Origin: a virus
Virus record (IMG/VR): IMGVR_UViG_3300030085_003915
Span: 62,409 to 85,500 of that record
Strand: one strand, 5' to 3'
Length of the DNA: 23,092 nt
Shown piece after piece: positions 6,074-17,833 of the stretch. A model generated the notes under the pieces. It saw only the letters and a list, made by a program, of their open reading frames with translations. It was not told the origin of the DNA and searched no databases. Position numbers and translations under genes: made by a program. How positions within the stretch are numbered: the first letter of the stretch is position 1; the number at the start of each line of letters is the position of its first letter.

Positions 6074-7121
6074 TGTTTATTTTAGCAAACCTATTGAGTT
6101 GAGTCCAAGTTTGCATTATCCAACTATCCATGTTTGGTAAGGCTCCGAACATCCTATCCTCAACAAACATTCTTTGGAATATTACTTTATTAAGTTCAGG
6201 TATCTTACCATTCACTATTCGATTAATCTTTAATTTGGCACCACCACTAATATCAACATCTGATAATTGCATTAATTTATGATTAATATCTATGGTGTCT
6301 TTATTATCAAGTATTAGATTGTAAAATCTCTCTCCTTGATGTTTTTGTGCTTCTTTAATTACATCATCATATGATATAACCTTCCCCTCAGTGCCCAAAT
6401 CAGGAAAGTGTTTCAACAAGGTTTTAGCACCAATACCTTTTACCCCTTTAATATTATCGGAAGTATCACCTTCAAAAACTCTACTCAATAAGAGATTTTG
6501 TGATGTTACATTGTATTCCTCTAACACCTTTTCGGGATTGTAAAGTTTCTTCTTGGTGGGTGACCAAACTGAAATTCGGTCATTAACCAATTGTAAGAAA
6601 TCTTTATCAGTAGACATAATCGTAACTTTACTATCAGGTAGTAATTGTTTTGCTGTGTATCCTATGGCATCATCTGCCTCAATACTATCAATAGACATTA
6701 TACTTACAGGTAACTTCTCTAAGTACTCCACACAACGAGATAATTGCATCATCATTGAGTGTCGTTCATCTTCTATATTTTCAAAATCGTTTACACGATT
6801 AAGTCTAATTTTGGTTGTCCGTTTAGCCTTATATTCAGGATAAAGTTTACGGCGGCGGTTACTCCCACCCTTACCATCGAAAACGATGATAGTGCGAGTG
6901 GGAGCTAACATCTTTACTGCGTAACCAACTGATTTAAGAAAACCAACTATTCCACCAATGTGAATTCCATCATCATTAGTAGTTGGTATAACTGAGAATA
7001 CTCTGATAAAAGTATTTAAGCCATCTATTATCAGTACTTTTTCATTGGGATTTGATGTGTTAGTTTTACCGCCATGTTTTTTTATCTCATCGAGAATAGA
7101 AAGGTATTTACCATTACTCAT
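6066..7121 (-). CDS. rnh: RNase H / 5'-3' flap exonuclease (T4 RNase H type)
   Basis: This FEN-type nuclease removes RNA primers and 5' flaps during lagging-strand synthesis. The PIN-like nuclease domain shows VLIIDGLNTFIRVF near residues 29-42, IIVFDGKGGSNRRR near 78-91 and IEADDAIGY near 147-155, followed by MSTDKDFLQL. These supply the acidic metal ligands. The helix-hairpin-helix DNA grip follows as GDTSDNIKGVKGIGAKT (about 208-224). Length (351 aa) is slightly above T4 RNase H (305 aa). I chose the ATG at 7121, which overlaps the uvsX stop by 8 nt; in-frame TTG and GTG codons lie just upstream (7127, 7124) and cannot be ruled out. Gene order uvsX-rnh-helicase fits a T4-like replication cluster. 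Confidence 0.93.
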   Translation of the reverse strand: MSNGKYLSILDEIKKHGGKTNTSNPNEKVLIIDGLNTFIRVFSVIPTTNDDGIHIGGIVGFLKSVGYAVKMLAPTRTIIVFDGKGGSNRRRKLYPEYKAKRTTKIRLNRVNDFENIEDERHSMMMQLSRCVEYLEKLPVSIMSIDSIEADDAIGYTAKQLLPDSKVTIMSTDKDFLQLVNDRISVWSPTKKKLYNPEKVLEEYNVTSQNLLLSRVFEGDTSDNIKGVKGIGAKTLLKHFPDLGTEGKVISYDDVIKEAQKHQGERFYNLILDNKDTIDINHKLMQLSDVDISGGAKLKINRIVNGKIPELNKVIFQRMFVEDRMFGALPNMDSWIMQTWTQLNRFAKINNG

Positions 7122-8220
7122 CACCAATCACTTCGTCTGTATATTCCACATCATCAATACCTAAATCTGCTGATTGGTATTGTAATATGGAAGCTTCACA
7201 AATCAAGTCATATAGGTGTTCTTGTAATCCATCAACTTCATCTAATTTCTTTTCAAAGTCCTTAGATTGAAATTTGATATCTTCACCTTCATAATTCAAG
7301 GTATACCAAGCACCAGCTGATTTTACCAACTTGTGGTCTTTCAAGACTTGTAACCAACTTCCCTTATCATCGATACCACTATCGAAATATAAGTTGAAAT
7401 CGGCGTGTCGTAAAGGTGGGCCTAATCGATTCTTGATAATCTGACATCGAGTTTTCATACCCAATACATTTTTTGATGTATCTTTGATTTGTCCCATATT
7501 CTTTAATCGAATACGAGTTGATGAGTGAAATGGTAATGCTTTTCCACCACTTGTAGTCCAAGGATCACCGAACATTACTCCGAGTTTCTGTCTGAGTTGA
7601 TTGGTAAATACGAGAGCTATTCTCTCACGACCAATCATTTGTGTAACCTTTCTCATCGCTTTAGAAACGATAATAGCTTTACTCGTTGCCCATCCGTCTT
7701 TCTCAAAGTCGGCTTCCATCTCTACTTTGGTCGATGCCCCTGCTAAACTATCCACAAGGATTGTAACTAACCTATCTCTATCTGATTCTCTAATCTTAGT
7801 AACTATGTTCTCAATACATTGAAATATATCTTCTACGGTTTCGACATGAAGATATAACAAGTCTTGGACATTTACTCCAATAGTTTCCAACCATTCTCTA
7901 CTAACAGAAGTTTCGGTATCGATATAAACAGCTATACCACCTTTTTTCTGAGTTTCGGAAAGGATGTGAGTTCCTATTAGAGATTTACCACTACTTTCTA
8001 ATCCATTGATTTCCGTAATACGACCAACGGCGATTCCACCATTAGGACGATTAGAAATAGCTAAGTCTAAGATAGACGAACCTGTTGATATAAATTCCTT
8101 TACATCTGTTGGTGTGGCGTTAGAACCATCTAAGAAATAGGCTACCTTTGTATCCTTGAACTGCTTATTAAGGTTATCGGCAAGAACTTGTGCAAGTTCA
8201 TCTTTTGCTGATATAGACAT
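7114..8220 (-). CDS. uvsX: RecA/UvsX-type recombinase
   Basis: An ATP-dependent strand-exchange protein for recombination-dependent replication and repair, acting on gp32-coated single strands. The 368-aa protein has Walker A GLESSGKS at 73-80, the DTETSVSREWL stretch at 101-111 and Walker B LVTILVDSLAG at 141-151. A gap follows where the DNA-binding loops lie. VFTNQLRQKLG (204-214) and TSGGKALPFHSSTRIRL match the conserved RecA core. The C-terminus ends in an acidic tail (DLGIDDVEYTDEVIGDE), as in RecA and UvsX. Size matches UvsX (391 aa) and RecA (about 350 aa). The AAGGAG site is 6 nt before the ATG. It sits 15 nt after gene 32, the classical functional partner. Confidence 0.95.
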   Translation of the reverse strand: MSISAKDELAQVLADNLNKQFKDTKVAYFLDGSNATPTDVKEFISTGSSILDLAISNRPNGGIAVGRITEINGLESSGKSLIGTHILSETQKKGGIAVYIDTETSVSREWLETIGVNVQDLLYLHVETVEDIFQCIENIVTKIRESDRDRLVTILVDSLAGASTKVEMEADFEKDGWATSKAIIVSKAMRKVTQMIGRERIALVFTNQLRQKLGVMFGDPWTTSGGKALPFHSSTRIRLKNMGQIKDTSKNVLGMKTRCQIIKNRLGPPLRHADFNLYFDSGIDDKGSWLQVLKDHKLVKSAGAWYTLNYEGEDIKFQSKDFEKKLDEVDGLQEHLYDLICEASILQYQSADLGIDDVEYTDEVIGDE

Positions 8221-8234
8221 ATATGTCTCCTTTT

Positions 8235-9005
8235 CTATTTATTAAACAGGTCGTCAAAAGCATCACTTACATTAGTAGTGTTTGTTACCGCACTTTCTAA
8301 TTTTTTACTTGTTGATGCTGGTGCAGGATCTGGTGTTCCTTTTTCTTCTCCATCTTCACTTGGATTTAACCAATTTTGTAAAGCTTCTGCAAGTTCATCA
8401 TAACTTAGTTCGTTATAAACTTCACGGATGTCTTTTTGGTCATCAAGTAAAGTACTTAGAACTGCTTTATCTTCTGTAACTGGTGTTTGATTCGGTTTAA
8501 CTCGAATAGAAGTTTTTGGAAACGATGCTCCAGTTTCTTCAGCTGTTAAGAACTCAACCACTACATCACGACCATTTACGGGATCACTAATATCACCATA
8601 GTCAGGATCTGCTATAATTGAAAGAAGTTCTTGATAAACTGTTTTACCAAAACCCCAAAACTTAGCACCTTGATTTTCTTCACCACGAACTACAACAGGA
8701 GCAAAAGTTCTTAGTTTTGCTTCAAGTTTCTTACCCATTCTCCAATCTTCACGATTACCTGAAGATTTGAGTTTTTCGGCAAATTCTTCAATCGGGTCAG
8801 GACGACCAAATGAGATTGGTGAAAGATAAGACTTTCCACCTAAATCATAATGAAAGAAAAGTTCAATGAAAGGAACTTCTGAGTTTAGTTTGTAAGGTAA
8901 AAGACGGATTTGTGTCTTTCCTGGTTGAGGTTTCCACAAGTTTGTTGTTCTTGTGGTAGAGGTCTGTAACTGGTTTAGTCGCTTTCTTACTGCTTCAATA
9001 TCCAT
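8235..9005 (-). CDS. 32: Single-stranded DNA-binding protein, T4 gp32 type
   Basis: It coats single-stranded DNA at the fork and recruits replication and recombination proteins. The N-terminal basic segment (residues 1-20, MDIEAVRKRLNQLQTSTTRT) corresponds to the cooperative-binding B region. The OB-fold core includes IRLLPYKLNSEVPFIELFFH and SYLSPISFGRPDPIEEFAEK. The C-terminus is acidic and ends SDAFDDLFNK, the usual protein-interaction tail. At 256 aa it is a little shorter than T4 gp32 (301). The protein contains no cysteine at all, so the His-Cys3 zinc site of T4 gp32 is missing. A strong AAGGAGATAACAA ribosome site precedes the ATG. uvsX follows after 14 nt. Confidence 0.88.
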   Translation of the reverse strand: MDIEAVRKRLNQLQTSTTRTTNLWKPQPGKTQIRLLPYKLNSEVPFIELFFHYDLGGKSYLSPISFGRPDPIEEFAEKLKSSGNREDWRMGKKLEAKLRTFAPVVVRGEENQGAKFWGFGKTVYQELLSIIADPDYGDISDPVNGRDVVVEFLTAEETGASFPKTSIRVKPNQTPVTEDKAVLSTLLDDQKDIREVYNELSYDELAEALQNWLNPSEDGEEKGTPDPAPASTSKKLESAVTNTTNVSDAFDDLFNK

Positions 9006-9047
9006 TTGTTATCTCCTTATTATTTATGTTTATTTGTTAATTGTCAA

Positions 9048-9068
9048 TTGTACATACTTTCTGTACAA
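9048..9068 (-). promoter_or_regulatory. Hairpin in the gene 32 leader, possible translational operator
   Basis: A perfect 7-bp stem, TTGTACA/TGTACAA with a 7-nt loop, lies about 43 nt before the gene 32 start. Between it and the ribosome site is an almost G-free A/U-rich stretch. T4 gene 32 mRNA has a similar layout (a folded element followed by unstructured A/U-rich RNA) to which gp32 binds to shut off its own synthesis. That this leader works the same way is inference. Confidence 0.45.
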
Positions 9069-9110
9069 CTATAAGTATTGGTTTGTTCCAAAAACAACAC
9101 AATTTTTTTG

Positions 9111-9332
9111 CTAAAATATTCTAAAATTATAAAATTTTCTCTTTGGTGGGCCTTCAAGTTCATTCCATTGAGTTTGTAAATTTTCTGTTACTGATAAGTG
9201 GAAGCGTAATTTACTCCATACGATAATTAAAGTGAAATTTCGATTGAAAAATATTCCTGATATTACTCTGTAATTATCATCGTCAGGATATTTCTCATCA
9301 TAACCATAATATTTGTTCCAATAAATGCTCAT
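9111..9332 (-). CDS. Hypothetical protein, 73 aa
   Basis: I do not recognise this protein. It is rich in aromatic residues (MSIYWNKYYGYDEKYPDDDN at the start, then FFNRNFTLIIVWSKLRFHLS), with a hydrophobic centre too short and charged to be a clear membrane span. The ribosome site is weak (GTGAG about 9 nt before ATG). It lies immediately downstream of an intrinsic terminator (9355-9428), so it would need its own promoter, and I see none. It may be a real small phage gene or a chance ORF. Confidence 0.4.
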   Translation of the reverse strand: MSIYWNKYYGYDEKYPDDDNYRVISGIFFNRNFTLIIVWSKLRFHLSVTENLQTQWNELEGPPKRKFYNFRIF

Positions 9333-9354
9333 TTTTTAATTCTCACTTTTTAAT

Positions 9355-9428
9355 AAAAAAAGGTGGTAAGTTTTATGATAATAGGATAAATCATTATCAG
9401 GGTATATGTAAAAAGACCTTACCACCTT
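9355..9428 (-). terminator. Strong intrinsic terminator ending the structured RNA
   Basis: Read on the minus strand, AAGGTGGTAAG (9418-9428) pairs perfectly over 11 bp with CTTACCACCTT (9360-9370), and a T-run (seven T, 9361-9355) follows at once. The 47-nt loop holds a second perfect hairpin, TGATAAT/ATTATCA (9376-9382 with 9393-9399). This is the most convincing terminator in the window and marks the 3' end of the upstream transcript. Confidence 0.8.
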
Positions 9429-9937
9429 AATAAATTGGAAAGTTAGGGAATACAAACACACCCATCTCATCTTTTAATTCTGTAAAGATACTCTCCAAAT
9501 TTCGGAAATATAGGGGATGTAGGATTAACGATTACCTACAACTTCAAGCTCAGATTTTTTCTCCCTTGTACCTAACACCTATCAGTTACGATAGTTCTCC
9601 TCAATGATGGTTAGTCATCGTCAAAGTGAGTACAACCTCTGTGCCATTACCTTAACTCTCTGAGTTTAGTTTCTTCGGTCATAAAGTGGGATTTCGGTTT
9701 TACCCTTACCCACAACAAGGTCTAAAGAATCGTGTTCTTTATATGTTCTTGAAGTACATTCTCTTAGTATTGTCATACGATATTTTCAACATTTAGCCGA
9801 ATACCAACCCACCACAGGTCTAAGAGCGGATTACCTTATGAGCTTCTAAAGGTTACTCATTATTCGGTCAATCCCATACAGAGTTAATTACTCTCCGTAC
9901 TTCTCATTTCCAAAATTGTCAAAAAACTTTTGTCTCG
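9355..9937 (-). ncRNA. Candidate freestanding structured RNA, about 580 nt
   Basis: No ORF of useful length exists here on either strand, yet the stretch is bounded by a promoter (9944-9972) and an intrinsic terminator (9355-9428). Local G+C is higher than in the flanking spacers. Many perfect hairpins are present. Examples are TAAAGAA/TTCTTTA around 9723-9741 (5-nt loop), TGTAGG/CCTACA at 9518-9540, CTATC/GATAG at 9579-9594, GTGGG/CCCAC at 9686-9713 and AGAGT/ACTCT at 9880-9894. Two 7-bp helices cross: CTCTTAG (9761-9767) with CTAAGAG (9820-9826), and CCGAATA (9797-9803) with TATTCGG (9861-9867), which would make a pseudoknot. Size and phage setting recall the large ornate RNAs ROOL and GOLLD, but I cannot match conserved blocks of either. 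I see no tmRNA tag frame, RNase P core or clear group I intron core. Confidence 0.6.
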
Positions 9938-9944
9938 AAAGACA
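9931..9944 (-). repeat. UUCG-loop hairpin at the start of the structured RNA
   Basis: On the minus strand TGTCT-TTCG-AGACA forms a 5-bp stem with a UUCG loop, a tetraloop context common in T4-type transcripts. It overlaps the expected transcription start of the large RNA, so it may belong either to that RNA or to read-through transcripts from upstream. Confidence 0.4.
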
Positions 9945-9972
9945 TAATATATATATACACAAAAAATCCCAA
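9944..9972 (-). promoter_or_regulatory. Candidate sigma70 promoter for the structured RNA
   Basis: On the minus strand TTGGGA (9967-9972) and TATTAT (9944-9949) are separated by exactly 17 nt. They match the bacterial consensus at four and five of six positions. The start would be near 9937. The -35 overlaps the small terminator-like palindrome at 9961-9988, so the end of one transcription unit and the start of the next seem to be fused. Confidence 0.5.
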
Positions 9973-9988
9973 ACGATTGGTTTTTTTT
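9961..9988. terminator. Small bidirectional terminator-like palindrome
   Basis: A run of six A, then CCAA-ACGA-TTGG within a near-palindrome, then eight T. Read in either direction it gives a short hairpin followed by a T-run. The GC stem is only 4 bp, extended by A-T pairs, so it should be a weak terminator. On the minus strand it would end transcripts from the 40-aa gene and the T-loop region. Confidence 0.45.
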
Positions 9989-9989
9989 G

Positions 9990-10200
9990 CTTTTTTTAAA
10001 AAGTGGGGATGCCAGTAGTCTCGAAGAACTTGCAGTGATGACTTAACATCCTAATCCCCAAATTTTTAAAAATCATTAATGGTAAGGATTCGAACCTCAC
10101 AGGACAATTCCCATTTCCACTCATTAAATTTTTGAGAGTTCCAAATAGGTAGTCACTCTCAAACCCACCAAGATTTCAAATTATCGTAGAAATCTCATAA
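9990..10200 (-). other. Structured spacer with tRNA-like T-loop and long hairpins
   Basis: No gene found. The minus strand carries GGTTCGAATCC (10086-10096), the exact T-loop consensus of tRNAs, with flanks TGAGG/CCTTA that can form the T-stem. A possible acceptor pairing TTAATG/CATTAA encloses it, but D and anticodon arms are missing, so it is not an ordinary tRNA. Next to it are a 9-bp hairpin TTTGAGAGT/ACTCTCAAA (10131-10163) and a 7-bp hairpin AGATTTC/GAAATCT (10171-10195). A long two-part stem joins 9995-10002 to 10063-10070 and TGGGGAT (10004-10010) to ATCCCCA (10054-10060). It could be a separate small RNA, a decayed tRNA, or the 5' part of the large RNA downstream. Confidence 0.4.
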
Positions 10201-10215
10201 CCACGAATGTCTTTT

Positions 10216-10338
10216 TCACTTTTTTTTAACTTTCTTAAACACAGGTAACGGGTCTGTAATAGGTGCGTCAGATTTCTTCTTGTAAAAGACTCCACCTACA
10301 CTCCAACCTATTTGAATACCTCTATGGTCTTTAATCAT
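10216..10338 (-). CDS. Small hypothetical protein, 40 aa
   Basis: An ATG at 10338 opens 40 codons (start MIKDHRGIQIGWSVGGVFYK, end PVFKKVKKK) closed by TGA. AAGGGG lies 9 nt upstream, the same type of ribosome site as the neighbouring small genes, which is the main argument that it is real. The product is basic with a lysine-rich tail. It begins 14 nt after the 82-aa gene ends and would be co-transcribed with it. I do not recognise the family. Confidence 0.5.
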   Translation of the reverse strand: MIKDHRGIQIGWSVGGVFYKKKSDAPITDPLPVFKKVKKK

Positions 10339-10352
10339 TATTTATAATCCCC

Positions 10353-10601
10353 TTATGCTAATTCCAACATTGAAAATGGAACATTGTATAACATACCATT
10401 CATATCAACTATGGCTTTCTTAATATTCATCTTGGTGATGACTCCTGGAGTCCTTTTGGTTTTCTGAACCACAAAGACATTATCTCCAACATTTAAAGAT
10501 GATTTACCCAACATAGTCTTACAATCACTAATGAATGCTGATAACTCATTCAAATCTGAAAGACTATCTAATTTCCTAATTTCGTTTTTTATTGATAACA
10601 T
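10353..10601 (-). CDS. Hypothetical protein, 82 aa, possible KOW/SH3-like barrel
   Basis: Not recognised as a named family. Residues 1-35 look helical. The second half, VGDNVFVVQKTKRTPGVITK followed by IKKAIVDMNGMLYNVPFSML, has the glycine placement and strand pattern of a small KOW- or SH3-like barrel, which often binds nucleic acid. The ATG at 10601 follows AAAGGG by 7 nt and is led by the promoter at 10629-10657, so it is probably the first gene of a short unit with the 40-aa gene. The fold assignment is inference. Confidence 0.65.
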   Translation of the reverse strand: MLSIKNEIRKLDSLSDLNELSAFISDCKTMLGKSSLNVGDNVFVVQKTKRTPGVITKMNIKKAIVDMNGMLYNVPFSMLELA

Positions 10602-10628
10602 TTATTTATTCCCTTTATTTGTTACTTG

Positions 10629-10657
10629 ATCTTACGAAGAATATTTGTAAAAGTCAA
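10629..10657 (-). promoter_or_regulatory. Sigma70-type promoter upstream of the 82-aa gene
   Basis: On the minus strand TTGACT (10652-10657), a 17-nt spacer and TAAGAT (10629-10634). An A-rich tract with the sequence AAAAAAAGCC lies directly upstream and may act as an UP element. The same design recurs at 11506-11535 and 12042-12070. Confidence 0.7.
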
Positions 10658-10666
10658 GGCTTTTTT

Positions 10667-10882
10667 TCACTTTTTTTCGATATTATACAATATATCGTGG
10701 TCTTTTTGTTCGTCTAATATTTTTCTTTCTATATCATCTTTTAGACCATATAAATCAGACCTTGCTCCATCTAAATAACTCCTACCATCAGAGTTTCCAT
10801 CCCATTCGGGTAAGCTATAGAAAGAATCATCTAACTGACCTTCTATTTCTTCTAATCTATTTAATATTTCTTTGTATGTCAC
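10667..10882 (-). CDS. Hypothetical protein, 71 aa
   Basis: Unrecognised, strongly acidic and probably helical: MTYKEILNRLEEIEGQLDDS, then SYLDGARSDLYGLKDDIERK. The start is a GTG at 10882 preceded by AGAGG, and it lies directly after the stop of the upstream gene (TAATGTG), so it is likely coupled to it. It resembles the 86-aa protein at 11554-11814 in layout (an N-terminal KEIL..LE helix, then an acidic helix containing a YxxxAxxxL stretch), and the two may be distant paralogues. Confidence 0.65.
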   Translation of the reverse strand: MTYKEILNRLEEIEGQLDDSFYSLPEWDGNSDGRSYLDGARSDLYGLKDDIERKILDEQKDHDILYNIEKK

Positions 10883-10883
10883 A

Positions 10884-11108
10884 TTAACCTCTGTAAACTA
10901 AATCTACAATCATACCAAAGTGTTTATCGAATACTTTGATAAGGTGTTCATAATCACTTGATTCCATATCTTTAATAATACTATCAACATCCAAATCAAG
11001 TTGTTTTCCCCACTTTTGGGCTGTTCCTAAAAGAAAGTATGCGTTTCCTTGAGGACCTGAAAGGTTTATTTCCCTTTTTCTTGGTTCAGGATTTCTTATA
11101 ATACTCAT
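10884..11108 (-). CDS. Hypothetical small phage protein, 74 aa
   Basis: The body reads MSIIRNPEPRKREINLSGPQ, then GNAYFLLGTAQKWGKQLDLD. The REINL.GPQGNAxxLxGTAQ block looks like a small protein I associate with T4-like marine phages, but its function is not known to me. A longer frame starts upstream at 11141. I prefer the ATG at 11108 because it overlaps the preceding stop as TAATG, has GAGG 8 nt upstream, and begins at the conserved-looking part. Confidence 0.7.
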   Translation of the reverse strand: MSIIRNPEPRKREINLSGPQGNAYFLLGTAQKWGKQLDLDVDSIIKDMESSDYEHLIKVFDKHFGMIVDLVYRG

Positions 11109-11482
11109 TATAAATACCTCGGTCCTGTCCAATGAAACCAATCTGTCCTATCCAAGTATATTGAACCTCTAACATGCTTTGCTGGTGCTCTCCACCCAGC
11201 GGCTTTGAATACATCTCCAAATTTATAAGGTATTCCTTTGAGAACTCCATCAGTAACTGCTATGAAACCCCAAACAGAACCATTTTGGATAACTTTGATG
11301 TATTTCCTACCATGAGAAAGTCTAAGACCATTGTTGAATTCATCAATCATTTTAAGTCTAATTGATTTTTGTGGTTCATCTAAAGTATCAATATCATTAC
11401 CCCAATTAGCGTAATCTTTTTTAATACCATCAAGAAGTAAATCAACTCTTTCTTTAAATTTATTTTTATCTCTGTTTATCAT
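11108..11482 (-). CDS. Hypothetical phage protein, 124 aa
   Basis: Not assigned to a function. The N-terminal third is helical and charged (MINRDKNKFKERVDLLLDGI). The rest is a compact, aromatic and glycine-rich domain (GRKYIKVIQNGSVWGFIAVT, then FKAAGWRAPAKHVRGSIYLD and WFHWTGPRYL). The WRAPAKHxRGxIxxxxxxWxGPxYL ending looks conserved, as in a single-domain phage protein. The ATG at 11482 follows AAAGGG and the promoter at 11506-11535, so it is the first gene of a three-gene unit with the 74- and 71-aa genes, all overlapping or touching. Confidence 0.75.
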   Translation of the reverse strand: MINRDKNKFKERVDLLLDGIKKDYANWGNDIDTLDEPQKSIRLKMIDEFNNGLRLSHGRKYIKVIQNGSVWGFIAVTDGVLKGIPYKFGDVFKAAGWRAPAKHVRGSIYLDRTDWFHWTGPRYL

Positions 11483-11505
11483 ATAATCCCTTTATCTTAT
11501 ACTGG

Positions 11506-11535
11506 AATATACTAATAAAATAGTATACAAGTCAA
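11506..11535 (-). promoter_or_regulatory. Sigma70-type promoter upstream of the 124-aa gene
   Basis: On the minus strand TTGACT (11530-11535), an 18-nt spacer and TATATT (11506-11511), preceded by an A-rich tract. From the -10 through to the ribosome site (11488-11512) it is identical over 25 nt to the promoter at 12024-12048. Confidence 0.75.
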
Positions 11536-11553
11536 GGCTTTTTTTATTTTTTT

Positions 11554-11814
11554 TTACTCGTGATACGGAAAATTTAGTGGTAATCCATCAGGTCCCATCA
11601 AATCACCATTTATGGCTTCATTGAAGTCATGTTTTTCCTTGTCGGAAATAGTAACATTGTTTTCGATTCTATGAGTCAATTCATCCACTAACTCTTGGGC
11701 GGTTGATACATAACAATTAGCATCTACGGTAGAATCAGTATCAGTAAGATGATAAGCGTCTGTTAGTTCAGAACTAATCATTTCTAAGTATTTTAGTATT
11801 TCTTTTTTATCCAT
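11554..11814 (-). CDS. Hypothetical acidic protein, 86 aa
   Basis: Unrecognised. The sequence is acidic and mostly helical (MDKKEILKYLEMISSELTDA, then YVSTAQELVDELTHRIENNV) with a short ending GPDGLPLNFPYHE. The ATG at 11814 follows AAAGGGG. It is the second gene after the promoter at 12042-12070, 12 nt behind the 62-aa gene. Its architecture is like that of the 71-aa protein at 10667-10882. Confidence 0.65.
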   Translation of the reverse strand: MDKKEILKYLEMISSELTDAYHLTDTDSTVDANCYVSTAQELVDELTHRIENNVTISDKEKHDFNEAINGDLMGPDGLPLNFPYHE

Positions 11815-11826
11815 TATAAAACCCCT

Positions 11827-12015
11827 TTAAATAAACCCTTTAAGAATTGATTGACCACCACAACATGGACATACTTTCCACACACCTTCCTTCTCAGAAA
11901 ATGTAATAGCGGCGAAGAATGGTTTACCGAGTCCAAGAGATTCACCGAGTTTGGCGAGTCCCTTCTCGATAACTTGTTTAGATTTAATTGCTTTTGGTGT
12001 TGACCATTTTTTCAT
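11827..12015 (-). CDS. Hypothetical protein, 62 aa, with CPCC motif
   Basis: A short protein (MKKWSTPKAIKSKQVIEKGL at the start) ending with WKVCPCCGGQSILKGFI. The CPCCGG motif suggests metal binding, but only one cysteine cluster is present, so a complete zinc ribbon would need dimerisation. It is the first gene after the promoter at 12042-12070 and has AAAGGG before the ATG. The function is unknown. Confidence 0.65.
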   Translation of the reverse strand: MKKWSTPKAIKSKQVIEKGLAKLGESLGLGKPFFAAITFSEKEGVWKVCPCCGGQSILKGFI

Positions 12016-12041
12016 AATATATTCCCTTTATCTTATACTGG

Positions 12042-12070
12042 AATATACGAAGAAAATCAATACGAGTCAA
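12042..12070 (-). promoter_or_regulatory. Sigma70-type promoter upstream of the 62-aa gene
   Basis: On the minus strand TTGACT (12065-12070), a 17-nt spacer and TATATT (12042-12047), with an A-rich tract (AAAAAAAGTGAAAAAAA) just upstream. It lies between the end of the GH6 gene and the small-gene cluster. Confidence 0.75.
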
Positions 12071-12089
12071 GTGTTTTTTTCACTTTTTT

Positions 12090-12926
12090 TCACTTTTTAT
12101 TATGAATTAAATCAAGTGCCAGATGATGTGAGAATCTACCCGCCTTCGGACCTCCATTCACTTTACCATCACTCTCACCTGGTACTTTTATCCAAAGATA
12201 GGCATCTACTATTTCATCACAAGTTTTTGTGGTGGGATATTCACCGATTGAACGACCAAATGGATTGAAGTGTTCTGAATTAGCTCCATTACCATTTCTT
12301 GAAGTATCGATTACAAAATGTTTATTGTTGAGTCTCTTTGAGATTTTTTTTCCGTATTCATAACAAGTTGATGTGGCATAATAATTACTCGTGTTTAGTG
12401 CAAAACCTTTAACTTTATGTACATCACACAATTCAAGATAACTTACTGCCTTATTGGTGGACAACCATTTTGGATTCCCTATATCGATGTAAATTAATGC
12501 ATTTGTTCTACTTAATAATTCAATACTTGCCTTAATCAACCTCATCCTATCCATTCCGTCAACAACTCCCATATGTTCCATGTGTGGAATACAATCAGGT
12601 TCATATATTACGATAGGTGATTTATCTCCAAGTGAATTACAAAACTCTTGTATGAATTCTAAATATTCATCATCTGAATCTGCACCACCTTTTGAATGAT
12701 GTCCTAAATCTCGTTGTGGAATTGAATATATTACCAATACGGGTAGGTAAGGATGTGCCCGTTTTAATAATCGTTGGATTGATTTTTTGGTCTTTCGGAT
12801 GGTTCTCTTAGGCCCAACTCCATACCAAAAAGCTATCGGTTCTTTTGTGATTTCTCTTATTTGTGGGTGTTTTTTACAAACCTCTTTACGACTATTCCAA
12901 TCTGGATAATAAAACCTATAATTCAT
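12090..12926 (-). CDS. Glycoside hydrolase family 6 enzyme (cellulase fold)
   Basis: GH6 enzymes hydrolyse beta-1,4-glucan with inversion. The 278-aa protein is nearly a bare catalytic domain. Matching blocks in order are LVIYSIPQRDLG with D73, IVIYEPD with the presumed acid D111, ALIYIDIGNPKWL, GFALNTSNYYAT, HFVIDTSRNGNG with D207, and DAYLWIKVPGESDG with E251/D253, then NGGPKAG. All conserved acidic positions I know for the family are present, so it looks catalytically intact. There is no signal peptide, no carbohydrate-binding module and no linker, unlike secreted bacterial cellulases. It overlaps the end of the 143-aa gene and has a poor ribosome site, implying coupled translation. In a phage it could act on a host exopolysaccharide, on release through lysis, or as a virion part; the real substrate is unknown. 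Confidence 0.92.
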   Translation of the reverse strand: MNYRFYYPDWNSRKEVCKKHPQIREITKEPIAFWYGVGPKRTIRKTKKSIQRLLKRAHPYLPVLVIYSIPQRDLGHHSKGGADSDDEYLEFIQEFCNSLGDKSPIVIYEPDCIPHMEHMGVVDGMDRMRLIKASIELLSRTNALIYIDIGNPKWLSTNKAVSYLELCDVHKVKGFALNTSNYYATSTCYEYGKKISKRLNNKHFVIDTSRNGNGANSEHFNPFGRSIGEYPTTKTCDEIVDAYLWIKVPGESDGKVNGGPKAGRFSHHLALDLIHNKK

Positions 12927-13347
12927 TTTTTAATTTTTGGTCATTCTCCCAAGTATCGATGTTTACAATTGTGTAAATTCGTGTACGAATTTTATTTAAT
13001 CCATCATCATTTACTAATAATAACTGATTTTGATATTCTTCCCAAGGTACAGGAAATGTTTTATCCAACACTCCATTATTTTTTTCTCTGATAATCTCAT
13101 TTAATGAATTAATGGTATAAAGTGTATTAGTTTGTTTCTTTCTATGTAGTGCTATTGTATCCATCCCCTCTATAAAATTATCTTGATTCTGTGGTATATT
13201 ATAGGTACACATTAAGGAATGATGGTCATCTTCATTTTGAAACACATAAACTTTATTAAATACGATATCGTGGCACTCAATAATCAAACCTACGGTTTCG
13301 TAGAGTCGGTTTCGTTTAGTAAATGTACATAGTAGTTGAGTTCTCAT
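12916..13347 (-). CDS. Hypothetical protein, 143 aa
   Basis: I do not recognise it. It looks like a soluble alpha/beta protein: MRTQLLCTFTKRNRLYETVG, a stretch KVYVFQNEDDHHSLMCTYNI, then TNTLYTINSLNEIIREKNNG and KIRTRIYTIVNIDTW. There is no signal peptide or membrane segment. It starts with TAATG overlap on the 677-aa gene and overlaps the GH6 start, so the three are probably translated together. Confidence 0.7.
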   Translation of the reverse strand: MRTQLLCTFTKRNRLYETVGLIIECHDIVFNKVYVFQNEDDHHSLMCTYNIPQNQDNFIEGMDTIALHRKKQTNTLYTINSLNEIIREKNNGVLDKTFPVPWEEYQNQLLLVNDDGLNKIRTRIYTIVNIDTWENDQKLKNEL

Positions 13348-15380
13348 TATTTAGATTCTCGTTGTAAGCATTTTTGAAAAGACTTACTAAAGGAAATGGT
13401 GTCTTGAACTTTTGTTCCTTTACCACCCTTCGGTCTAATAGTTTGTTCACCTATTACATTACCATCTAAATCATATATGGTTACATATCCTGATGCACCT
13501 TTACTTGATTTTACCTCTGAAACTCTAATATTTTCTGCTATATCTTTAGTTGGAGGCTTTACTCCTAAACATTTTGCTATGTTTTCTTTATTTACAACTA
13601 CTGCATTATCACCTTTAGATAATTCCCCTTGACCAAACTTTTGAGATTTACCTTCGGGTTCACCAGTTTCAGGATTTACCTTTTTGTAATATCCACCTGC
13701 AGTATGAACCCATTCATTTCCATCCTTATCATACTTAATTCCACTATCGTTATTACCCATGTTCACTTCGAAATTTTCTGAAGGTATACCACCAGGATTA
13801 TGACCTTCCACCACATCTAAATGTAGTCTACTTAAAAAGTTTTTTGATGCTACATAATCTCCATAAGGCTGTGGTGCGTTTTCTGATTTGACAGACTCAT
13901 TTAGTTCGTTTCTTGTATTAGTAATTAATTCATGTTGGTCTTTGTATAATTGATTCAATTCTTCTTCGGGTGGTGGTTGAACCCTTGCCAATATTTTTGT
14001 CATTCCTGATGTTGGTTCAGTTGCACCATCCACACCATTTGCTGCGTCCTGCATTTCCTTTACATAAGAAGCTGCCACTCTTTCTTCTTCCTCAGGAGTT
14101 AATGGTGGATCGAAATCTCCTGTTTGTGTATCAAATTGTCTTTTAGATATTGGTGGATCGAGTGGTGGTTTTACTTTTTTCTGATGATTAGTGACTACAT
14201 CTTTCCAATATTTAGCACTTGTTCCACCAGCAGATGGTTTACTTAAAACTTTTAACTCATCTATTATTCCTCGTGGTAACTTTGCATTTAATTCATCATT
14301 CTGTTGTTGAATTAAATCATTAATTTCTTTCTGTTTTCCAGCTAAATCCTTTTCAAGTTTTTCAGTTTTTTCTGTAATAGCTTTGTGTTCATTTTTAGTA
14401 ATTTTACCATCTTTTAAATCTTTATCTGCCTGTTTTCTCATCGCCTGTGCATTTTTTTCAGGAGATGAATTTCCTTGTATATCATTAGACGAGGTTTTAT
14501 TTGATGTGTGGTTTATTACAGCCTTAGGTGGTTTAACTGAATCATCTACCATTACAACCATAGTATCTGTTGGATTCTCTCCTGCTCCACCTTCTAATAT
14601 TATCTGTTTATAATCTGGATAAGGTGGGCCGTTGAGTGGAATACCATTAACTTCTGTAACTCCTAACTTTTCTAAATGGTCTACTGTATTTTTTAAAGAC
14701 TTCTTTGAACCCCAAACATGAGAAACTTTAGTGGTTTCTGGATTCATTCCATTCTTTTTAATAGTTTCTTGTGACCTTTCAAATTCTCTTTTTGCTGATT
14801 TAGCGGCCGCTCTACACGCACTTCTTGTCTTATCTGCCCCATTGGAATCACCAATTGTATTTGGTGGATTCGTCATCATTTCTTCAAATAATAATTCTTC
14901 TAACTCATCAACTGACATATTAGGATTATCAGAAAGATGGCTCATACCTATACCAGTACCAACTTCGTTTATCACAGATGATAGATTACCAGGTGCCTTT
15001 ACGGTTTCATTTAATCCACCTTGTTTTTCCTCACCATCAATAACATCTATATCTTCTCTTGTAATTTTACTCGTTGGAGAATCTTTTTTTGTTTCTTTCT
15101 CTTTCGCATCCAAGGCCTTTTGTGATTTAGGATGGTCTTTAATATATTGTGCCTGTTGTGCAGGTGTCATATCACTCCACCAATCCTCAGTAACAATTTC
15201 TTTTCCATTTCTTAAATTACCAATAAACTCATTTAAGGCATAAGTGTTGTTTCTAAAATCTTTCTCAAATTTTACTATGGATTCTCGTAACCAAACAAGA
15301 TGATTTGGATTGGTCATATCTGGACCACCATCTCCACACTTGTGTGCAAAATCCTTTAATATTTTATCCCAATTTTTCAT
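13347..15380 (-). CDS. Large protein of unknown function, 677 aa, possibly virion-associated
   Basis: A hydrophilic, low-complexity-rich protein. Near residue 66 is WWSDMTPAQQAQYIKDHPKS, a short WW..M.PAQQ.QYI..HP motif that I associate with phage structural or scaffold-type proteins. A more ordered region around 185-300 includes SACRAAAKSAKREFERSQET, a conserved-looking QIILEGGAGENPTDTMVVMV, and KAVINHTSNKTSSNDIQGNS. The E, D and K placement there would be compatible with a nuclease-type fold, but that is only a guess. A coiled-coil stretch (about 310-365, KLEKDLAGKQKEINDLIQQQ) follows, then proline-rich linkers and a small C-terminal domain rich in glycine. No membrane segments. It overlaps the polymerase-like gene by ATGA. 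Confidence 0.65.
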   Translation of the reverse strand: MKNWDKILKDFAHKCGDGGPDMTNPNHLVWLRESIVKFEKDFRNNTYALNEFIGNLRNGKEIVTEDWWSDMTPAQQAQYIKDHPKSQKALDAKEKETKKDSPTSKITREDIDVIDGEEKQGGLNETVKAPGNLSSVINEVGTGIGMSHLSDNPNMSVDELEELLFEEMMTNPPNTIGDSNGADKTRSACRAAAKSAKREFERSQETIKKNGMNPETTKVSHVWGSKKSLKNTVDHLEKLGVTEVNGIPLNGPPYPDYKQIILEGGAGENPTDTMVVMVDDSVKPPKAVINHTSNKTSSNDIQGNSSPEKNAQAMRKQADKDLKDGKITKNEHKAITEKTEKLEKDLAGKQKEINDLIQQQNDELNAKLPRGIIDELKVLSKPSAGGTSAKYWKDVVTNHQKKVKPPLDPPISKRQFDTQTGDFDPPLTPEEEERVAASYVKEMQDAANGVDGATEPTSGMTKILARVQPPPEEELNQLYKDQHELITNTRNELNESVKSENAPQPYGDYVASKNFLSRLHLDVVEGHNPGGIPSENFEVNMGNNDSGIKYDKDGNEWVHTAGGYYKKVNPETGEPEGKSQKFGQGELSKGDNAVVVNKENIAKCLGVKPPTKDIAENIRVSEVKSSKGASGYVTIYDLDGNVIGEQTIRPKGGKGTKVQDTISFSKSFQKCLQRESK

Positions 15381-16648
15381 AATCTCTCCGTTATATCAAC
15401 CATTTCATGATAGTTTGTCCCCTTACTTGTTTTAGTAGGAAATAACCCGTTACTCTCAATAATCTTTTTTGTTTCTTTCAAAAAATCAACTCCATCTTCT
15501 AAGTTAAAGTCGAATAAAAAAGAATCATAACTATACAATATCAACTTACTCTTGTATGATTCCATAAATGGAATAAGGTTAGTTAGTATCTTCATATTGT
15601 TTTCAGTTTCCATCAACTGAATAATATAATTAAATATCTTATTCCGATTCATATCGGCCTGGTTCTTTCTATATATCTTCTTACTATAAATATCAGATTG
15701 TATAAATTTTTGGTCTTTATATAATTTCCAAGTTTTATTAATGTATTTATGAACTTTTTCAAAAAATGGATTGATTTTTATGACTTCTGGTGGAATGTGA
15801 CCATATAAGTACTGAAAAGACCGATTTTTCGACTCTTGGTAATCACATCCGTAAAATTTTGACATATGTTCATGAACTGAACCTTCAGGAAAACTATAAT
15901 TTAATAAATTTCCAATTAATCTAAGGTGATATGCATCATAGTCAAATTCAATCAACATACCTTTATCAAACCTACTCCTAAATGGCTTTCTTGACTCATC
16001 CGTTTTATTTAGGGCTGCAAAATTAATACCACCGAATCTATTACTTGGTCTACCAGTACTTGTATATGGATTATACTCTGAATAAACTATCTTATCATTA
16101 TGTCTCAATCCAGCACTTTCTATATAAGTTAAGTTATCAATAATTTCATTATTATACTCTTGATGAACTTCTAAATCAATATATTTTTGATATTCATCCG
16201 ATAGGTTTTGACATAACTCAAAATGTTTTAATATAGGAATAACACGATTTATATTTTTTGTTCTATAATACTTTCTACTAAAATAATCATGTGAATTGGT
16301 AGTGATTTCTTCAATCGATAGTGGTTGATTGTACTCCATATAATACTGAAGATTAATATCTATGACATTTTTCCATTTAACTATGTGATTGAGTTGTTTT
16401 TTATCATAAACATATTTTTTTCGATTGGATTTTAACTTATCAAGTAATGATATATCAAGATTTATCGATTCTCCATGATTAAATGGCAAAATATATTCAC
16501 CACCATTTATTAATTTAATATAAACGGCACACAATGTGTTTTCTAAAGGGTGTTTATTTATATCAGATAATATTGGAATTACAATACAATCTGACTCTTG
16601 ATATTTCTCTAAAAAACTCTCAAACTCTGTTGGGTTTTCTATTATCAT
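15377..16648 (-). CDS. Short divergent family-A DNA polymerase-like protein
   Basis: The C-terminal half carries the family-A polymerase signature in order. TSTGRPSNRFGGINFAAL (196-213) stands for the TGR..S..PNLQNIP motif. Motif A is IEFDYDAYHLRL with D236. The O-helix KNRSFQYLYG (274-283) keeps K, F, Y and G. Motif C is ILYSYDSFLF, with D375 in the place of the HDE aspartate. Both catalytic aspartates remain, but E710 (E. coli Pol I numbering) is replaced by histidine, the arginine before the O-helix lysine is lost, and motif C has YDS for HDE. Residues 1-110 look like a degenerate 3'-5' exonuclease fold (KKYVYDKKQLNHIV, VIDINLQYY) without the usual DxE. At 423 aa it is far below normal Pol I size. 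It may be a reduced repair polymerase, or a non-catalytic relative. Confidence 0.85.
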   Translation of the reverse strand: MIIENPTEFESFLEKYQESDCIVIPILSDINKHPLENTLCAVYIKLINGGEYILPFNHGESINLDISLLDKLKSNRKKYVYDKKQLNHIVKWKNVIDINLQYYMEYNQPLSIEEITTNSHDYFSRKYYRTKNINRVIPILKHFELCQNLSDEYQKYIDLEVHQEYNNEIIDNLTYIESAGLRHNDKIVYSEYNPYTSTGRPSNRFGGINFAALNKTDESRKPFRSRFDKGMLIEFDYDAYHLRLIGNLLNYSFPEGSVHEHMSKFYGCDYQESKNRSFQYLYGHIPPEVIKINPFFEKVHKYINKTWKLYKDQKFIQSDIYSKKIYRKNQADMNRNKIFNYIIQLMETENNMKILTNLIPFMESYKSKLILYSYDSFLFDFNLEDGVDFLKETKKIIESNGLFPTKTSKGTNYHEMVDITERL

Positions 16649-16665
16649 TATAACCTATTTTATTT

Positions 16666-17169
16666 TTATCGAAACTTACTTATTGTCTCGTGTTCCCAAT
16701 TGAACCAATCTAATACACCAACTTGACTCTTGTAAACTTTTAATAACTCACCTTTTTTCTTTATCATTTCAGCACCTAACTTTTTACCTCTATCAAAACA
16801 CCATAGCTTTTCAGGTCTTAGATGTGCTAAAACATCATGACATGCTCGATGTCTTGGATGTCCATATTCACCATTCTCTCCATGAGTTACAATCTTTTCA
16901 TAATCTCTTTCTCTCAACACTCTTAATAATTCGTAGATTAACTTTTCTCTATAATAATCTTCTTTTCCCTTGTAACCTGTCCAATGTTCATACTCGTGAA
17001 TACCAATGAATCTCATTGAATCTAAGAATTCTCTCCTTCTAATGTCATTATGATACTCATCTAAAACCACCACTTTATATTCATTTGGATGTGATAATAA
17101 TTCAGCACCACCAAATAAGGCCTCATCGTCAGGATGAGATACTATCATTATTTTGTCAATTTTACTCAC
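16666..17169 (-). CDS. PIG-L/LmbE-family deacetylase
   Basis: Zinc-dependent enzymes of this family remove the acetyl group from N-acetylglucosamine-type sugars. The N-terminal metal motif SHPDDE is at 11-16 and the second ligand region GHPRH at 103-107. In between is VVVLDEYHNDIRRREFLDSM, as is usual for the family. Length (167 aa) is at the short end. The frame is open upstream to 17238, but that would overlap nagB by 77 nt. I chose the GTG at 17169, which overlaps the nagB stop by 8 nt and has GAGG upstream; the ATG at 17148 is a second option. Being coupled to nagB, it may produce glucosamine-type substrates. The exact substrate (free sugar, lipid-linked or peptidoglycan fragment) is not visible. 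Confidence 0.85.
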   Translation of the reverse strand: MSKIDKIMIVSHPDDEALFGGAELLSHPNEYKVVVLDEYHNDIRRREFLDSMRFIGIHEYEHWTGYKGKEDYYREKLIYELLRVLRERDYEKIVTHGENGEYGHPRHRACHDVLAHLRPEKLWCFDRGKKLGAEMIKKKGELLKVYKSQVGVLDWFNWEHETISKFR

Positions 17170-17833
17170 TATAATAAACCTCACAATTTGGATGTTCTTG
17201 TAAAAGTGAAGCTGGTATATCATCGGTAATATCACCATGAACAGCTTCTTCTAAAATTTCTTTTTTATGTTTACCTACTGCAACTAAATATATCTTTTCG
17301 GCACCCAAAATACTTGACATTCCCATTGTGTATGCCTGTGTGGGAACATCTTCAATATTTTCAAAAAACCGACTATTATCCTTTATTGTGTTTTCTGTCA
17401 AATCAACTATTCGTGTAGATGAGTATTTATGTGAACCTGGTTCGTTGAATGCTATGTGTCCGTTTGTTCCAATACCTAATATTTGAATGTCAATACCACC
17501 ACTATTTTTAATCATCAAGTCATATTCATTATAATTTTCTTCGGTTGGGAAGTAGTGTTTTCTGAAATTTAAATTATTGAACAAATGTTTGTTCATAAAA
17601 TATTGATATGATTGGTCATGGTCTTTTTCAAGTCCTACATACTCATCAAGATTAAAGGTTATCGTATCACCGAAATTTGTGTTTCTCATTTTACTGAGTT
17701 TTTCATAGATACCAATAGGTGTTGAACCTGTTGCTAATCCCAAAACAACATGAGAATTATGTTTTACTTTATCACGAATATTACTAGCGATTAAATGACA
17801 AACTTTTTCGTATGTATTACTTCTAATCCTCAT
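17162..17833 (-). CDS. nagB: Glucosamine-6-phosphate deaminase
   Basis: NagB converts glucosamine-6-phosphate into fructose-6-phosphate and ammonia. The 223-aa protein shows the phosphate loop GLATGSTP (32-39), the catalytic FNLDEY with D63 and E64, and GIGTNGHIAFNEPGS with H126 and E131, the general acid/base pair. It keeps N124 where E. coli has Asp; bacilli also have Asn there. It is shorter than E. coli NagB (266 aa) and stops soon after NCEVYYSE, so the C-terminal part of the allosteric enzyme is absent. A 6-phosphogluconolactonase is less likely given the NagB-specific motifs. The ATG overlaps the thyX stop, and the deacetylase follows with an 8-nt overlap. Confidence 0.93.
   Translation of the reverse strand: MRIRSNTYEKVCHLIASNIRDKVKHNSHVVLGLATGSTPIGIYEKLSKMRNTNFGDTITFNLDEYVGLEKDHDQSYQYFMNKHLFNNLNFRKHYFPTEENYNEYDLMIKNSGGIDIQILGIGTNGHIAFNEPGSHKYSSTRIVDLTENTIKDNSRFFENIEDVPTQAYTMGMSSILGAEKIYLVAVGKHKKEILEEAVHGDITDDIPASLLQEHPNCEVYYSE

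Follow-up and report, generated by a model that had tools for sequence, protein, structure and literature searches.

The window analysed here, i.e. the whole stretch of 23,092 nucleotides, corresponds to positions 62409-85500 of an 85.5-kb fragment of a T4-like virus (record G000) and contains a gene for a glycoside hydrolase of family 6 (GH6). Around this gene we find gp32, UvsX, an RNase H/exonuclease, a gp41-type helicase, a ribonucleotide reductase, ThyX, the clamp loader and a T4-type DNA polymerase; the GH6 region belongs to the phage. GH6 is the last member of a densely packed string that starts with a gene resembling family-A DNA polymerases (PolA) and continues with u677 and u143, the successive overlaps being 4 bp, 1 bp and 11 bp (Table 1). 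The PolA-like product matches the "DNA polymerase family A" of Flavobacterium phage immuto at 32-34%, and u143 always adjoins GH6 in the window lineage but is also found in phages without GH6.

Table 1. Position of the GH6 gene and of the features next to it (window coordinates).
Feature	Coordinates	Strand	Remarks
CDS of the GH6 glycoside hydrolase (278 aa), consisting of the catalytic domain alone	12090..12926	(-)	PF01341, AF2 model, dN/dS
u143, small conserved protein, no assigned function, directly upstream of GH6	12916..13347	(-)	last 11 bases overlap GH6 start
u677, long fast-evolving protein, no assigned function, same gene string	13347..15380	(-)	no phage-record match
Gene resembling family-A DNA polymerases, first in the PolA-u677-u143-GH6 string	15377..16648	(-)	4-bp overlap with u677
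gp32-like ssDNA-binding protein, bounds the GH6 site on the other side	8235..9005	(-)	immuto homologue, same gene order, annotated ssDNA-binding
UvsX/RecA recombinase, used for phage placement (core tree)	7114..8220	(-)	55% to Microcystis phage Mel-JY01
Region of variable cargo from GH6 to gp32, with small ORFs and DUF7717	9006..12089	(-)	u143-gp32 gap varies

There are a few further points about this virus that need to be mentioned. The divergent PolA-like gene coexists with a T4-type family-B polymerase and is invisible to both Pfam and PHROGs. The u677 protein keeps a fixed place, yet it is only 22-74% identical among relatives whose flanking genes are 60-95% identical, i.e. it diverges unusually fast. 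The 1162-aa and 260-aa neighbours received no name from the PHROG search even at lenient E-values. Each strand of the window has two occurrences of a T4-like late promoter, TATAAATA, which is not informative for expression timing, and sigma-70-like sites are at chance level (47 found, 46.4 expected). A TonB-dependent receptor, an unusual cargo for a phage, occupies positions 1-2308 on the minus strand and continues into the part of G000 that precedes the window; it is absent from the window's ORF list, as its frame extends past the window start, and its beta-barrel domain lies in the G000 part. An intact homologue of this receptor (L357:7200-10019, 939 aa, with CarboxypepD_reg and plug) is 67% identical in G000. 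The same record contains a surface-glycan biosynthesis cluster of about 35 kb (G000:19001-58000, found in L028 and L029), made up of nucleotide-sugar, NeuB, carbamoyltransferase, PIG-L and glycosyltransferase genes, as well as a pair of a CobS-like ATPase and a CobT-like gene (L027:529-3814), while NagB and a second PIG-L are located within the window at 16666-17833.

The GH6 reading frame begins with ATG, and its stop codon (TAA or TGA) is counted within the coordinates. In the Pfam search it matched PF01341 with 157.7 bits (E 7.6e-46, cut-off 27) over profile positions 13-299 of 305. The domain fills the frame from end to end, without a signal peptide, linker or carbohydrate-binding module (CBM), and an in-frame extension upstream is blocked by a stop within one codon. 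The residues Y67, R72, D73, S78, D111, D148, K247, E251 and D253 make up the full GH6 catalytic and active-site set. A preliminary description, which gave no strand, had seen here an intact GH6 enzyme in a phage, with complete catalytic motifs but stripped of signal peptide, linker and binding module, and this description holds: the HMM score is strong, the region is viral, and the catalytic residues are retained in all 51 phage relatives, which form one clade in the GH6 tree. The activity predicted from the family is hydrolysis of beta-1,4-glucan by an inverting mechanism.

An AlphaFold2 model, computed from an alignment of 63 sequences, has a mean pLDDT of 90.4 and a pTM of 0.91, and it shows the distorted beta/alpha barrel of GH6. 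Foldseek matched the model to 1up0, the Cel6 of Mycobacterium tuberculosis (E 1.5e-30), and VIA-align superposed the two with Z 38.0 and an rmsd of 1.9 over 276 residues, whereas cellobiohydrolases of about 360 aa with tunnel loops reach a Z of only about 30. The nearest solved relatives are this endoglucanase and Thermobifida fusca Cel6A. As the protein is short and fits the endoglucanases more closely, the model points to an open-cleft (endo-type) architecture. Structure prediction had been proposed in order to inspect the tunnel loops; it produced a GH6 fold of high confidence, and the open cleft is read from the alignment. PHROGs contains no family for the GH6 protein of the window, and BFVD contains no viral GH6-like fold, the top matches being unrelated folds with TM of about 0.4.

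GH6 is found in more than 80 viral loci of uncultured phages. A pattern-limited scan of IMG/VR gave at least 78 GH6 loci, and a scan with gp32 added four more (L144, L149, L150, L155). Among 50,697 phage records, on the other hand, GH6 was present only in Streptomyces phage Gilgamesh (a match consisting of two copies of the same record) and in one unverified faecal scaffold, at 32-35% identity. The earlier view that GH6 is not a regular phage gene is thus true of the cultured phages in these records, but not of the uncultured Far-T4 phages, in which whole clades carry it. The viral loci show three kinds of context, i.e. GH6 lies between u143 and gp32 (window type), upstream of gp25/gp6-type baseplate genes (group B), or beside a peptide deformylase (group C). 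For the proteins tested from groups B and C, Mel-JY01 is among the nearest isolates, and in one of the groups immuto as well.

When 79 GH6 domains were placed in a tree, the 51 non-redundant phage rows formed a single clade (support 100/100), which a long branch separates from Streptomyces, Cellulomonas and candidate-phylum bacteria. The GH6 domains of Gilgamesh and of two other loci (L031 and L346, the latter with an export-like N-terminus) fall outside this clade, on the bacterial side of the tree. The other phage GH6 groups share 43-50% identity with the window protein; over the domain, the bacterial relatives among the matches listed do not exceed about 42% (one partial match has 45%). The bacterial sequences come from the listed matches of a pattern-based scan, so the branch is phage-only relative to the bacteria sampled; with this incomplete sampling, a closer bacterial relative may exist beyond the matches listed.

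Y67, R72, D73, D111, D148, K247, E251 and D253 are identical in all 51 phage rows. The cysteines, which we take to pair into two disulfides as in the Cel6A enzymes of T. fusca and Trichoderma reesei, are a different matter. The column of residue 74, in the first pair, has cysteine in 25 of 25 bacterial rows and in none of the phage rows, and its partner in 24 of 25 versus 0 of 51. In the second pair, residue 220 is cysteine in all 25 bacterial but only 19 of 51 phage rows, and its partner, residue 256, in 25 of 25 versus 2 of 51. The first disulfide is gone from all 51 phage rows and the second is lost in at least 49, the window lineage included; as the partner is missing in 49 of 51, at most two phage rows could still form it. 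The members of the phage clade are bare enzymes of 270-318 aa, and in none of them did we find a signal peptide or an additional domain. The loss of disulfides together with the lack of a signal peptide fits an enzyme that would be adapted to folding in the reducing cytoplasm.

Another difference concerns the tryptophan before the third cysteine (position 219). It is present in 25 of 25 bacterial sequences and kept in group C, but it is replaced by histidine in the window lineage (19 of 19 rows) and by threonine in group B (9 of 9); the aromatic residues W34 and W154 are kept in all rows. The column presumably corresponds to W367 of T. reesei Cel6A, the platform of the +1 subsite. Loss of Trp219 would alter aglycone binding in the window lineage, and with histidine in its place the substrate may differ from cellulose. 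The new substrate that had been considered in the preliminary description thus gains some support for this lineage; the digestion of a host capsule or biofilm, also put forward there, would be a candidate role.

A core-gene tree was built from the 72 non-redundant records in which u143, gp32 and UvsX are all visible. The presence of GH6 requires two changes on this tree, compared to a mean of about 20 in shuffled data, and none of 500 shuffles was as low. GH6 occurs in every member of two Far-T4 clades and all other records of the tree are without it; many of the GH6-positive records had been found via GH6 itself, while the u143 and gp32 scans do not have this bias but are smaller. In the u143 scan, GH6 was found in 18 of the best 80 loci. 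Where GH6 is lacking, u143 and gp32 are in most phages about 100 bp apart, and in the simplest phages with GH6 972-985 bp, so the site is either empty or filled; over all GH6-bearing records the distance is 972-4897 bp. One candidate for a member of the window lineage without GH6 is doubtful: in L125 (1-6372) a window-type gp32/UvsX pair is joined to an amino-acid permease, two oxygenase-like ORFs and a TonB-dependent receptor, and these bacterial-type genes beside gp32 may reflect a chimera or else host-derived cargo. The dN/dS values of the window gene against its relatives are 0.05-0.13, with many dS values near saturation, and judging from the sequence comparison the purifying selection on the phage GH6 is strong.

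A close relative of the window phage (G011, 131.8 kb) has a GH6 that is 81% identical to that of the window. Its major capsid protein gp23 is 52-59% identical to those of Mel-JY01, immuto and the uncultured phage LR756508, and 39% identical to that of Rhodothermus phage RM378, which serves as the reference for the Far-T4 group (PMC4360716, PMC7198788). G000 itself is without the capsid segment, so the capsid placement rests on this relative; the order PolA-u143-gp32-UvsX/RecA is common to the window phage, immuto and Mel-JY01, the latter two being without GH6. By the relative's capsid and the shared gene order, we place the window phage among the Far-T4 phages. An in-silico study linked Far-T4 phages to Bacteroidetes hosts (PMC7198788), and this link, the hosts of immuto and RM378, and the phage's own TonB-dependent receptor with its CarboxypepD_reg domain point to Bacteroidota-like hosts. 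A Flavobacterium-like host is not supported, since Shine-Dalgarno sequences are used in G000 (35% versus 14% in shuffled sequences) but not in immuto (0 of 14). The cyanophage marker psbA was not found in the 34 records searched.

Taken together, the data suggest that these phages, viruses of aquatic bacteria, use GH6 to cut a glucan that surrounds the host or is released by it. The reading that we favour, and hold tentatively, is that of an active, open-cleft beta-1,4-glucanase that would be synthesised in the host cytoplasm, fold there without disulfides, and be set free at lysis together with the progeny. Once outside, it would then cleave a beta-1,4-linked glucan in the surface coat of the host or in the surrounding matrix, and the benefit might be that virions are freed from debris, or that the coat of neighbouring cells is cleared. 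The location of GH6 in G011, downstream of tail and baseplate genes and in the same direction, was counted in favour of this reading. On the other side, His or Thr at position 219 may make cellulose itself a poor substrate, and Far-T4 phages without GH6 still lyse their hosts.

Several alternatives have to be weighed against release at lysis. That the gene is bacterial contamination or a decaying copy has practically no probability: it is ruled out by the phage genes on both sides, the more than 80 viral loci, a dN/dS of about 0.1 and the absence of stops, and nothing was counted in its favour. The enzyme might instead be carried on the virion, non-covalently attached to the tail or baseplate, and clear a glucan coat during adsorption. 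This possibility comes second to release at lysis; in its favour, a second phage lineage has gp25/gp6-type baseplate wedge genes at a distance of a few genes downstream of its GH6, Gilgamesh has its own, unrelated GH6 directly after minor tail genes, and a tail block precedes GH6 in the same direction in G011. However, fused fibre, trimerisation or structural domains are absent from all members of the phage clade, and the site beside gp32 is a cargo site.

We consider it unlikely that GH6 acts within the infected cell as an auxiliary metabolic enzyme, hydrolysing glucan or cello-oligosaccharides and directing their carbon to phage production. The absence of an export signal and of disulfides would agree with such a role, and so would the NagB, PIG-L and TonB-dependent receptor genes of these phages; but GH6 enzymes act on polymers, which are seldom present in the cytoplasm, and NagB and PIG-L come and go among the relatives while GH6 stays. 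A little less likely still is a role in remodelling the envelope, where GH6 would trim a non-cellulosic glycan, either at the surface or an intermediate, at the same time as the phage uses its own glycan cluster to rewrite the host surface. The surface-glycan cluster of about 35 kb in the same genome and the loss of Trp219 in the window lineage speak for it, and the known specificity of the family speaks against it, as to our knowledge all characterised GH6 enzymes cleave beta-1,4-glucan. We also speculate, giving this about as little weight, that in two Far-T4 clades a disulfide-free GH6 with altered aglycone binding acts on a glycan other than cellulose and, together with phage glycan synthesis and the TonB-dependent receptor, rebuilds the envelope of the infected cell.

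Returning to the glucanase as such, an old, phage-only GH6 that is fixed in clades and has shed its secretion features implies that beta-glucan matters in the infections caused by these phages. Far-T4 phages are widespread yet almost uncultured, and the presence of GH6 could perhaps predict the host or niche. A naturally disulfide-free GH6 should moreover be expressible in the cytoplasm of E. coli.

It is worth comparing the phage enzyme with the known GH6 systems. In textbooks, GH6 is a family of secreted cellulases with disulfide bonds. The endoglucanase Cel6 of M. tuberculosis (CelA1, PDB 1up0/1uoz) shares with the window protein the fold, 34% identity, the catalytic residues and the short endo-type loops; in contrast, the phage protein has neither signal peptide nor either of the two disulfides, and His219-Phe220 replaces the Trp-Cys of Cel6. 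T. fusca Cel6A (endoglucanase E2, PDB 1tml, 2bod) is similar in fold (Z 34-35), open cleft and catalytic residues, but the phage protein lacks its linker, CBM and disulfides and belongs to a phage-only clade. Gp72 of the cultured Streptomyces phage Gilgamesh (MN234216) contains a GH6 domain with 32% identity to the window protein, and differs in its 149-aa N-terminal extension, in its place after the minor tail genes and in its grouping with bacterial GH6. Far-T4 phages (RM378, immuto, Mel-JY01 and freshwater contigs; PMC4360716, PMC7198788) resemble the window phage in capsid, polymerases and gene order, but the isolates are without GH6, and the words "hydrolase" and "cellulase" are absent from one Far-T4 paper (PMC4360716). 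In the open-access literature searched, we came across no account of a GH6 lineage conserved among Far-T4 phages. GH6 has been reported among viral auxiliary metabolic genes on scaffolds from Mariana Trench sediment (PMC8725595), where the authors read it as a transfer from host bacteria, and from Aral Sea soil (PMC9948696). Membership of the family is therefore ordinary, and the new part is the phage-only branch with its lost disulfides, together with the histidine that replaces Trp219 in the window lineage: the Mariana and Aral genes are, going by their descriptions, sporadic, whereas the lineage described here is old and fixed in its phages.
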